Assembly (NCBI GenBank): GCA_036397255.1
Contig: DASWJH010000108.1
Location: 1 to 49,676, forward strand
DNA length: 49,676 bases
Direction of reading: 5' to 3'
Source: Nitrospiria bacterium
Lineage (GTDB): Bacteria > Nitrospirota > Nitrospiria > DASWJH01
Below are positions 43,559 through 49,198 of this stretch, piece after piece. The position numbers and the translations under genes were made by a program. Position 1 is the stretch's first letter. Each line of letters starts with the position of its first letter. A model generated the notes under the pieces. The model saw only the letters and a list, made by a program, of their open reading frames with translations. It had not been told where the DNA came from and made no database searches.

Positions 43559-43572
43559 AATGGGGAAAGAGA

Positions 43573-43628
43573 CTGGTGGAGTGATTTGGGCATATTGCAA
43601 CCACCTAAAAAAAAGTGCTAAAAAGCTT
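43573..43628 (+). promoter_or_regulatory. SAM-II-type riboswitch aptamer upstream of metK
   Basis: The sequence contains, in order, the SAM-II signatures: stem GGTGG (43575-43579), AGTGATTTG, TTGCAA, the closing stem strand CCACC (43601-43605), an A-rich linker, and GTGCTAAAAA (43615-43624). The loop bases GCAT (43590-43593) can pair with GTGC (43615-43618), giving the H-type pseudoknot of this class. It lies between a promoter and an intrinsic terminator, ahead of S-adenosylmethionine synthase, which fits a SAM sensor. I considered SAM-I, but GCAACC falls inside the first hairpin here, which does not fit that fold. Confidence 0.85.
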
Positions 43629-43653
43629 GGGAGTTTGTTGCTATGGCGATTGG

Positions 43654-43684
43654 CCCTGTGCTGGACGGCACGGGGTTTTTTTTT
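43654..43684 (+). terminator. intrinsic terminator in the metK leader
   Basis: Eight-bp stem CCCTGTGC (43654-43661) with GCACGGGG (43668-43675), one G-U pair, six-base loop, then nine T. It lies between the aptamer and metK and is the likely expression platform. A TATAAT at 43727-43732 downstream could be a second promoter independent of it. Confidence 0.8.
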
Positions 43685-43779: not shown

Positions 43780-44931
43780 ATGGGTCGCGTCAATTTTTTA
43801 TTTACATCTGAATCAGTTACAGAAGGCCATCCCGATAAGATCGCGGATCAAATCTCAGATGCGGTTTTAGATTCGATCATATCCCAGGACCCCATGTGCC
43901 GGGTTGCCTGTGAAACGGTTTTAACAACGGGTTTGGCTTTTGTCGCAGGGGAAATCACCACTCAGTGTTATGTCGAAATTCCTGATATTGTCCGGGAAAC
44001 CATTAAAGGGATTGGGTATACCCGGGCCAAATATGGGTTTGATTATGAAACCTGTGCGGTAATTACCTCTATTCATAACCAATCACCCGATATTGCCTTG
44101 GGAGTCGATACCGGTGGAGCTGGAGATCAAGGGTTAATGTTTGGGTATGCCACCAACGAAACCGAAGAGTTGATGCCTATGCCGATTTTATTGGCCCATA
44201 AGTTGACGCGAAAGTTAGCGGACCTTAGAAAAAGCGATGTTTTGCCTTATCTTCGTCCCGATGGAAAATCCCAAGTTACCATTGAATATCGAAACGGGAA
44301 ACCGGTTCGAATTCATACCATTGTGATTTCCACACAGCACAGCCCGGATATCACACTAAAAGAAATTCGGGAAGATATTATTGAAAAATGCATTAAGCCA
44401 GTGGTTCCAAAAGAATTTTTAAATGAAGAAGATGTTGTATACCATATTAATCCCACCGGGCGTTTTGTAGTGGGGGGGCCTCAAGGGGATACGGGTCTTA
44501 CGGGGCGAAAGATTATTGTGGATACCTATGGAGGAGTGGGAAGCCATGGAGGGGGCGCTTTTTCAGGGAAAGATCCCTCAAAGGTAGACCGTTCCGCTTC
44601 TTATATGTGCCGGTATATTGCCAAAAACCTTGTGGCGGCCGAGGTTGCTGATCGTTGTGAAGTTCAACTTGCCTATGCCATTGGCGTCTCGGAACCGGTT
44701 TCCATTTTGGTGGACACGTTTAAAACCGGGAAAATTTCTCAAGAGAAAATCGTCAAATTGGTGAGGGATTCCTTCCCCTTAACCCCAAAAGGAATGATTG
44801 ATCATCTTGATCTTCGAAGGCCTATTTATCAAAAGACCGCTGCTTATGGCCATTTTGGACGAACTGAGCCGGAATTTACATGGGAGAAAACAGATTTGGC
44901 CAAAGATATTGGAAAACAGGCAGGCCTTTAA
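43780..44931 (+). CDS. metK: S-adenosylmethionine synthase
   Basis: 383 residues, full length, behind TGGAGGAAAT. It makes SAM from methionine and ATP. The signatures are [20 protein letters not shown] at the start, [29 protein letters not shown] with the mobile loop, and [19 protein letters not shown]. It stands behind a SAM-II aptamer and terminator, so it is probably repressed by its own product. The ahcY locus follows 73 bases later, so the two were likely one operon. Confidence 0.97.
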
Positions 44932-45004: not shown

Positions 45005-45323
45005 ATGGATTACGAGATCAAAGATATTGGATTAGCAGATTGTGGACAACTGAGGATTGAGTGGGCAGAGCGGAGTATGCCCGTTTTTAGAAGCATTAAA
45101 AAGCGTTTTAAAAAAAAAAGAAAAATTTTTGTCCGGGGTTCGGGTTTCGGCTTGTCCTCATGTGACAACCGAAACAGCCAGTTGGATGGAGGTCTTTCAA
45201 GCCAGGAGCGTTGATGTGGTTTTGTGTGCTTCAAATCCCCTCAGCACGCAGGGCGATGTGGCTGCATCTTTGGTCAAAAATTCCAAGATACCTGTTTTTG
45301 CTATTCAGGAGTTATTACAATGA
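45005..45323 (+). pseudogene. 5' remnant of the original ahcY (short, archaeal-type)
   Basis: From ATG 45005 the frame reads MDYEIKDIGLADCGQLRIEW, typical of the N-terminus of the short 'archaeal/thermophile-type' S-adenosylhomocysteinase. The frame breaks within a run of ten A at 45110-45119; with one A fewer it would continue as FLSGVRVSACPHVTTETASW and [20 protein letters not shown] to FAI near 45305. There the homology stops abruptly and the ribosome site of the next gene begins. About the first 100 residues of the family are covered. The matching 3' end lies after the inserted gene. Confidence 0.85.
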
Positions 45324-46726
45324 GCGAATTTACAGATTATAAAGTTGCGGATATGTCATTGGCCGAATGGGGTCGCAAAGAAATATCCATTGCCGAAATT
45401 GAAATGCCTGGTCTTATGGCTTTACGAAAAGAGTACGCAGGCAAAAAACCATTAGACGGTGCCCGGATAATGGGCAGCATTCACATGACCATTCAAACCG
45501 CGGTCCTAATCGAGACATTAGTAGACCTTGGCGCAGAGGTACGCTGGGTATCATGTAATATATTTTCAACACAAGATCATGCAGCTGCAGCGATTGCCGC
45601 AAAAAACATTCCTGTATTTGCCTGGAAAGGCGAAACGATTGAAGAGTATTGGTGGTGTACTGAGCAGGCCCTGCTATGGCCGGATGGGAAATTACCCAAC
45701 ATGATTCTTGATGATGGTGGTGATGCAACTTTATTAGTACACAAAGGTGTTGAGTTCGAAAAAGCTGGCGCTATTCCCACGACAAAAGATGATGACAATG
45801 AAGAATACAAAGCGATTCTCGGTGTACTTCGTCGCACAATTAAGCCTGGTTCAAGCACATGGCAGGATATTGCAGGTAGCGTTAAAGGCGTAACCGAAGA
45901 AACCACAACCGGTGTTCACCGTCTTTATGCAATGCAGGAGAAAGGTGAATTACTGTTCCCAGCAATGAATGTTAACGACTCTGCTACTAAGTCTAAATTC
46001 GATAATTTATACGGTTGCCGTGAGTCTTTAATCGATAGTATCAAACGTGCAACCGATATCATGATTGCTGGAAAGATTTGTATTGTGATTGGTTATGGCG
46101 ATGTAGGCAAAGGCTGCGCTCAAGCATTTAAAGGCATGGGCGCAACTGTATGGGTTACTGAAATTGATCCCATCTGTGCATTACAGGCAGCTATGGAAGG
46201 CTATCGCGTTGTTGACTTAAATGAAGTAGCTAACATGGGTGACATCTTTGTTACGACTACGGGTAACTTAAACGTAATTGATCATCACCACATGGAAGCA
46301 ATGAAGAACGAAGCTATTGTTTGTAACATTGGTCACTTCGATGCTGAAATCAATATCGCTTCACTTAAAAAATATGAGTGGGAAGAGATCAAGCCTCAGG
46401 TTGATCATGTTATTTTCCCAGATGGCAAAAAGATTATCATCCTTGCAAAAGGACGCCTGGTTAACCTGGGTTGCGCTACGGGTCACCCAAGCTTTGTAAT
46501 GTCGGCTTCATTTACTAACCAGGTAATGGCTCAGATCGAGTTTTATACAAATGCAGGAGCGTATGAAAACAAGGTTTATAAACTGCCTAAGCTGCTAGAT
46601 GAAAAAGTAGCTCGCTTACACCTCAAGAAAATTGGCGCACATTTAACTGAGCTCTCTAAAGAACAGGCCGTTTACATTAATGTACCGGTTGAAGGCCCAT
46701 ATAAAGCCGATCACTACCGCTACTAA
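45320..46726 (+). CDS. ahcY: S-adenosylhomocysteinase, complete, proteobacterial type, foreign
   Basis: 468 residues from ATG 45320, with AGGAG ten bases upstream; an open frame reaches back to 45224 but those codons belong to the remnant. It hydrolyses SAH to adenosine and homocysteine. Visible are [20 protein letters not shown], the NAD-binding [29 protein letters not shown], and the C-terminal [15 protein letters not shown] tail. The insert-containing [17 protein letters not shown] region marks the longer bacterial/eukaryotic type, unlike the flanking remnants. Codon use differs from neighbours: glycine is mainly GGC/GGT, while metK prefers GGG/GGA. This points to horizontal acquisition into the native locus. 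Confidence 0.95.
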
Positions 46727-46747
46727 TATCAGGCTCAACTTCTAGGT

Positions 46748-47093
46748 CGGGTGTGCCCATTTTTACATGGCTGTACCCATTGATATACCTTCTTTGGAAC
46801 AGATGAGCAATAAGAAGAGGCTCATTCGTGAATTTGTAGAAGAATTTACCATGCCCGATGGTCTGCGGATTAACCTACTAGGAGAGGGGCATCCCTCCAG
46901 CGTAATGGATGTGAGCTTTGCCAACCAGGCGCTTTTCGCTGAATACCTTAAAAAAGAAAATAAATAATTGAAAAAAAAGGTTTATGGGGTTCCGGCAGTT
47001 ATTGATGAGGAAATTGTCCGATTAAAATTGGAAGCGATGGGGGTGAAGAAGGAACAAGAAAAGTATCTTGCTTCATGGGAAATGGGGACCTAA
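46748..47093 (+). pseudogene. 3' remnant of the original ahcY
   Basis: In one frame the sequence reads IDIPSLEQMSNKKRLIREF, then VEEFTMPDGLRINLLGEG, HPSSVMDVSFANQALFAEYL, an in-frame TAA at 46965, and then [20 protein letters not shown] ending [11 protein letters not shown] and TAA at 47091. This is the C-terminal third of a short-type S-adenosylhomocysteinase. Compared with the usual family sequence a segment is missing between DGLRI and the NL that follows, and a few residues before EKYL. A possible trace of the upstream GHF-x-IDIP motif starts near 46748. Deletions and a stop show it is no longer functional. Confidence 0.85.
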
Positions 47094-48289: not shown

Positions 48290-49198
48290 ATGGACTTACC
48301 TCAAAAATGGATCGATGTTGGAAAAAGGGTTCAGCAATCAGGGGGTATTGTCATGGTCATGGGAAAGCCCGATATGGGAAAATCGACCCTGATCCAATAC
48401 CTTTTGAAGTGCGGGTTGCAACAGGAACGGCGGGTTGCTGTTGTTGATGCCGATATTGGGCAGGCTACCTTTGGTCCACCTTCCTGTTTGAGCCTTTCTT
48501 TTTGGACAAGGCCCAAGGATAAGGAAGAGAAAGATCCAAAGGGTGGGGATATCCATATAGAGGGGAATTGTAACTATAAAAATTTACAATTTATTGGTGC
48601 TTTAAGTCCAGTGGGGTTTCTCCTCCAGGTGGTGGTGGGGGTTAAACGATTGGTGGATCAAGCCCTGGAGCGGGGAGTGGATTTGGTTTTGGTGGATACC
48701 AGTGGGTTGGTTCAAGGAAGAACGGGATTTTTGCTCAAAAAACATAAGATTGAATTGGTTCGGCCCAACCATCTGATTGTCCTCGAGAGAAGAGAAGAAG
48801 AACTGGAAAACATTCTCACAGGGATTCCTTTCCCTCCAGGAATGATTGTGTCTCACGTTCCCAGAACCCCGAACACTCGACCGCGGTCTCTGGAAGAACG
48901 CCGTATTTATCGGGCCAAACAATTCTCAAATTATTTTCAAAATAGCCGGGCCCGATGGATTTACTTTTCAAACCAGAGGAAACCGCTCCCTGGAATGCAC
49001 CCCTTTAAGGGAATGCTGGTGGGTCTTCTTTCCAAGACCGGACAGACATTGGGGCTTGGCATGATCTCCCGCATTGGACGAAAAAGCCTAGAAGTCATTA
49101 CCCCCTTACCCACACTGACGGGTGTGCAAAAAGTGGAGCCTTCGGTCATTGGCTTGGGAAAAGATTTTTTGGGAAAAAAGGACGGAAAACTGAATTAG
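48290..49198 (+). CDS. Clp1/Grc3-like P-loop kinase
   Basis: 302 residues. Walker A GKPDMGKS is at 25-32, and VVDADIGQATFGPP follows at 51-64, the DxDxGQ signature of Clp1/Grc3/NOL9-type polynucleotide 5'-hydroxyl kinases. LVLVDTSGLVQGRTGFLLKK resembles the Walker B/lid region. The C-terminal part has a beta-rich domain (GMLVGLLSKTGQTLGLGMIS). These enzymes phosphorylate 5'-OH ends of RNA or DNA. The bacterial members are little studied and the substrate here is unknown. No repair ligase or RtcB lies beside it. Confidence 0.75.
   Translation: MDLPQKWIDVGKRVQQSGGIVMVMGKPDMGKSTLIQYLLKCGLQQERRVAVVDADIGQATFGPPSCLSLSFWTRPKDKEEKDPKGGDIHIEGNCNYKNLQFIGALSPVGFLLQVVVGVKRLVDQALERGVDLVLVDTSGLVQGRTGFLLKKHKIELVRPNHLIVLERREEELENILTGIPFPPGMIVSHVPRTPNTRPRSLEERRIYRAKQFSNYFQNSRARWIYFSNQRKPLPGMHPFKGMLVGLLSKTGQTLGLGMISRIGRKSLEVITPLPTLTGVQKVEPSVIGLGKDFLGKKDGKLN

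Follow-up and report, generated by a model that had tools for sequence, protein, structure and literature searches.

The window analysed here is a whole contig (C108, 49,676 nucleotides) from the draft genome of a Nitrospiria bacterium, a 3.35-Mb assembly of 122 contigs with 97.5% completeness and an estimated contamination of 0.5%. Near its right end, a metK gene with a riboswitch-like leader is followed by three successive stretches of ahcY, the gene for SAH hydrolase (adenosylhomocysteinase). The central stretch is a complete gene of the long type, and it is flanked on both sides by pieces of the short, archaeal type. The features of the locus, all on the forward strand, are as follows.

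43570-43631, +, SAM-II-type riboswitch aptamer upstream of metK (Rfam RF01726, 43.7 bits, E 6e-6)
43652-43677, +, terminator-like hairpin between aptamer and metK (11 pairs followed by a T run; a consensus match only)
43780-44931, +, metK, native to the host class (TIGR01034, 604 bits; metK tree)
45005-45308, +, left remnant of the native short-type ahcY, residues 1-100 (TIGR00936 matches; 69-76% identity to short AhcY of the class)
45309-45319, +, left junction with a Shine-Dalgarno-like GGAG (donor relatives not alignable upstream of the open reading frame)
45320-46726, +, complete long-type ahcY of gammaproteobacterial origin, 468 amino acids (TIGR00936, 631.2 bits; tree; codon use)
46727-46757, +, right junction (matches neither the donor relatives nor, clearly, native genes)
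46758-47093, +, right remnant of the native short-type ahcY, from about residue 294/295 to 418 (about 61% identity to short AhcY of the class; 88.5 bits)

The metK gene groups with its counterparts in the host class, with 84% identity to that of family f6 and at most 64% to the gammaproteobacterial metK tested. Throughout the class, ahcY lies 6-237 bases behind metK in nearly all loci read, and in most families it is an intact gene of the short type, as the original prediction had anticipated for close relatives. The leader of metK scores just below the gathering score of RF01726 (43.7 versus 44 bits), and the corresponding matches before metK in relatives reach 49.4, 47.9 and 44.6 bits. These relatives belong to families f4 and f7 only, a distribution that supports an inherited leader. 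Within the class as a whole, SAM-II-type riboswitches were found in families f1, f4 and f7 only (5 of 270 genomes); to our knowledge, the class lies outside the groups associated with SAM-II. Further downstream in the window, the protein encoded at 48290-49198 carries a P-loop of the CLP1 type (PF16575, 117 bits); this polynucleotide-kinase-like family is known chiefly from eukaryotes and archaea.

Native remnants on either side of the inserted gene

The left remnant matches the NCBIfam profile TIGR00936 (ahcY) over positions 1-38 in one frame and 24-98 in the next. A single net shift of frame falls at ten consecutive adenines (A10, 45110-45119). The run is a possible site of a sequencing or assembly slip or of transcriptional slippage, and the frameshift, lying in a homopolymer, could be a base-calling error. 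In the second frame the remnant closes with a TGA that overlaps the ATG of the inserted gene (ATGA, 45320-45323). The right remnant is recognizable from about 46758, and at the latest from 46776, and reaches the last native residue, 418, ending at the native stop codon (47091-47093). Its 66-codon open reading frame matches profile positions 296-368, and reading through the in-frame stop gives a match to positions 294-416 (88.5 bits). This piece has lost 30 nt in frame between GAGGG-like repeats, is interrupted by a TAA at 46965-46967 and shows a further in-frame gap of 15 nt.

Together, the two remnants span the first ~100 and the last ~125 codons of the broken gene, and between them about 193 codons of the native sequence (roughly 101 to 293) have been lost. 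The original prediction had described a frameshifted N-terminal piece ending near 45305, a C-terminal piece resuming between 46748 and 46776 with small deletions and a stop, and a loss of about 200 residues. Every element that it named is real and its coordinates are off by no more than a few tens of bases: the native sequence ends at 45308 on the left and resumes from about 46758 on the right. It had also held that failure of the flanks to resemble short-type AhcY in a profile search would count against it, and TIGR00936 matches both. No further similarity to short AhcY was detected in the window at E<=0.01, which excludes a chance resemblance of the flanking pieces.

Phylogenetically, the conceptually joined remnants group with the short AhcY proteins of the class, but their branch measures 0.6-0.7, the median being 0.04. 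Of 82 sites at which all intact relatives agree, 17 are altered in the remnants (11 of 76 once six sites beside the right junction are omitted); intact relatives change at no more than 5 of 87 such sites. The long branch and the losses at invariant sites indicate that the native short-type ahcY is, as judged from its sequence, a decaying pseudogene. It retains both ends of the short AhcY of the host class, including the signature HVTTE, but differs from the intact proteins in the absence of the middle ~193 residues. The remnant signature is of the HxTxE form and that of the inserted gene (HMTIQ) of the HxTxQ form; both are associated with a preference for SAH (PMC10978960), so the substrate of AhcY was probably not altered by the swap.

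The inserted gene and its junctions

The complete longer-type AhcY anticipated at 45320-46726 was confirmed by a match to the full TIGR00936 profile (positions 1-416) at 631.2 bits, against a curated cut-off of 497.6, and the protein can be aligned over its whole length with bacterial enzymes of solved structure. A search of 84,980 species genomes identified gammaproteobacterial proteins as its closest relatives, with 91% amino acid identity to that of a symbiont of Taylorina and 87-89% to those of Thiotrichaceae-like genomes. The AhcY tree that the original prediction had called for (114 proteins) places the insert within a five-member gammaproteobacterial clade (SH-aLRT 99). Like the four gammaproteobacterial long-type proteins compared with it (L033-L036; 87-91% identical and of the same clade), the insert is full-length. 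Its setting is different, in that it lies behind a host metK with a SAM-II-type leader and does not adjoin an SAH riboswitch.

At the DNA level the insert shares 79-80% identity with the closest of the donor relatives sampled. Compared in 60-codon blocks with the closest relative (L033), the insert shows 75-82% identity and is gammaproteobacteria-like throughout, and hence is not a patchwork. A dN of 0.09 against a dS of 1.9, in comparison with a second relative (L034), is indicative of purifying selection. In its codon use the insert is closer to gammaproteobacterial ahcY than to the host (-0.97 versus -1.14 log units per codon), the reverse of metK (-1.28 gammaproteobacterial versus -1.01 host). 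The suspected preference for GGC and GGT among glycine codons proved marked, at 33 of 37 as opposed to 33% in 29 neighbouring host genes. No second ahcY was found in the 97.5% complete genome, which holds only the broken native pieces besides the insert.

The junctions, which are known from one genome of the family, were searched for traces of the joining mechanism. There is no target-site duplication or inverted repeat between them, the longest direct and inverted matches being 5 nt (p ~0.8), and no mobile-element family was recognized among the eight neighbouring proteins scanned. A transposon or cassette insertion was rejected on these grounds, there being no duplication, no terminal inverted repeats and no mobile-element genes in the neighbours scanned. 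A match of 8 nt (TATTACAA) that the left junction shares with native DNA was likewise discarded, as shuffled sequences reach it in 5% of cases and controls show it too. Ku was searched for and not found. The genome does encode dprA and comEC, but from these widespread genes no more can be concluded than that uptake of DNA is conceivable. No donor-host homology beyond the open reading frame was seen against 12 donor relatives, although the true donor may lie outside these.

Had homologous sequences been exchanged at corresponding positions, the product would be a chimeric gene. Here, the foreign open reading frame is whole and both breakpoints fall outside it, which argues against such an exchange. 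Given the lack of a duplication, an inverted repeat, a mobile element and Ku, we favour illegitimate recombination of imported DNA, perhaps facilitated by homology, as the origin of the joins.

The locus as a probable displacement in situ

The arrangement is very probably a xenologous gene displacement in situ caught part-way, in which a horizontally acquired orthologue has replaced the native ahcY in place. This reading, which is that of the original prediction, is supported by the tree of the insert, the native metK, the short-type remnants, the lack of a second ahcY and the locus of the relatives. A gene of foreign phylogeny thus lies behind a vertically inherited metK, in the position of an ancestral orthologue that has been lost. 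Comparison with relatives, where the order is still seen, shows that the ancestor carried the riboswitch, metK and a short ahcY. The anatomy of the locus shows that a gammaproteobacterial DNA fragment with a whole ahcY open reading frame, and possibly its own ribosome-binding site, took the place of the ~193 codons inside the native gene, either all at once or through an insertion followed by a deletion. The native ahcY has been destroyed and has decayed since. The new, intact SAH hydrolase would have assumed SAH removal, presumably read from the metK transcript, and the gene would have shed the SAH riboswitch typical of its relatives and come under the SAM-II-type leader of the host.

The insert appears to have taken over the function of the native gene, since it is an intact, conserved open reading frame under purifying selection and the sole ahcY. 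Its expression from the metK transcript is suggested by the same status as the only ahcY, by conservation along its length and by the lack of any terminator-like site found on the + strand between metK and the start of the insert.

A foreign gene could also have landed late, in a native ahcY that was already dead because SAH was being cleared by another route or by another ahcY. A bypass is conceivable, as the genome has a match to MTA/SAH nucleosidase (71.8 bits, below the curated cut-off of 73.8), and the sequence is compatible with either order of events. We nevertheless regard this course as unlikely: a chance landing in that very gene, behind metK and with its orientation preserved, would be improbable unless a needed function was being replaced, and the same outcome recurs in other families. 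Still harder to sustain is an assembly chimera, in which a gammaproteobacterial piece was wrongly stitched into the native ahcY. The draft state of the genome, with its 122 contigs, and the 91% identity of the insert to a known gammaproteobacterial protein are compatible with such an error. Stitching of intact genes, however, would not yield the decay seen in both flanks (frameshift, stop, deletions and long branch); the breakpoint at either end lies just outside a complete open reading frame; the rest of the genome contains no native ahcY; and the contamination estimate is only 0.5%. Flank decay, the lack of a native gene elsewhere and the precise boundaries together make an assembly error very unlikely. 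Finally, the open stretches of 88 and 66 codons and the ATGA overlap, which would allow translational coupling, might be taken to mean that the flanking pieces are maintained for short peptides that they express, with a role such as linking translation of metK to that of the new gene, but this is barely credible given their long branch and losses at invariant sites, the frameshift on the left and, on the right, the stop that cuts the piece and its missing conserved segment.

Displacement in situ, the preferred reading, is a known kind of event. The replacement of an operon gene in place by a xenologue has been described for mosaic operons (Omelchenko et al. 2003, as cited in PMC1274311 and PMC2259305). 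The cases so described share with the present locus a foreign orthologue in the native place beside a vertically inherited operon gene; the locus differs from them in that both broken native ends persist and the foreign gene lies inside the native one. A displacement through homology-facilitated illegitimate recombination has been proposed for the T6SS effector genes of Vibrio (PMC5361080). In both situations a new gene occupies the old locus with pieces of the old gene beside it. The Vibrio loci, however, have a conserved upstream stretch that serves as a homologous anchor, of which none is detectable here, and the newcomer there is not an orthologue of the old gene, whereas here it is one.

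Swaps and riboswitches across the class

Long-type ahcY genes also turned up in other families when 270 genomes of the class were scanned and the loci of representatives were read. In family f8 such a gene lies directly behind metK (~65% identity to the insert), as it does in most genera of family f12 (~54%). The long types of the window, f8 and f12 form separate clades in the AhcY tree, and the idea that the class acquired its long types only once was rejected (AU p 0.003 for the window with f8, and ~0 for f8 with f12). On the metK tree, a single-gene stand-in for the species tree, the type of ahcY changes at least three times, and within f12 two short-type genera branch outside the sampled long-type genera. 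Judging from these trees, there have been at least three in-place swaps from short to long ahcY behind metK in the class, from separate sources.

Family f15 and one f8 genome carry the long-type gene away from metK (L158/L159 and L120 on contig C12 of G031, respectively). The metK loci of f15 and G031 hold no detectable short-type remnant, which indicates that the link between ahcY and metK was itself lost there. More generally, no short-type remnants were found at E<=0.01 in the other long-type loci (39 searched, some of them duplicates and many of them covered by flanks of only about 1.5 kb), and the window is the only swap seen with native remains among those searched. An apparent short-type fragment upstream of the long ahcY of an f15 genome (L138, G219) was rejected as the N-terminus of that gene itself, beside a run of Ns. 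The run, at about 988-1296 of this locus, is a scaffold gap inside ahcY with a repeated stretch on its flanks, and the resulting assembly artefact resembles a fused gene. The view that an in-locus swap of this kind is rare therefore holds in part: the swap recurs at least three times in the class, and it is the survival of both native ends that is rare.

The swap is also predicted to have changed the control of the gene. An SAH riboswitch lies directly before ahcY in eight of ten gammaproteobacterial loci searched; in L034 it lies ~1.3 kb further upstream, and none is found near ahcY in L033, the closest relative of the insert. The inserted gene has no SAH riboswitch, and none was found in the genome, a search in which control genomes likewise gave no match. 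On this basis ahcY is predicted to have moved from SAH-induced to SAM-repressed control.

A more tentative model can be drawn from these comparisons, and we offer it as a possibility. The site behind metK may be a repeated target for insertion of whole open reading frames followed by erosion of the native ends, with selection keeping ahcY in the metK transcript and each swap moving the gene from SAH-sensing to SAM-sensing riboswitch control. The window might then represent an intermediate that has been erased in f8 and f12.

A limited literature search returned no published description of this case or locus. The kind of event is known; what the locus contributes is an intermediate with both native ends around the newcomer, among repeated swaps at one site. 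The arrival of a foreign orthologue in a native operon slot is usually inferred from trees, the physical evidence having gone. Here, the presence of both native ends points to the placing of a whole foreign open reading frame inside the gene, as opposed to a homologous exchange at matching positions, and the recurrence of at least three swaps at the same spot in one class opens the process, and the roles of operon position and riboswitch control in it, to comparative study.
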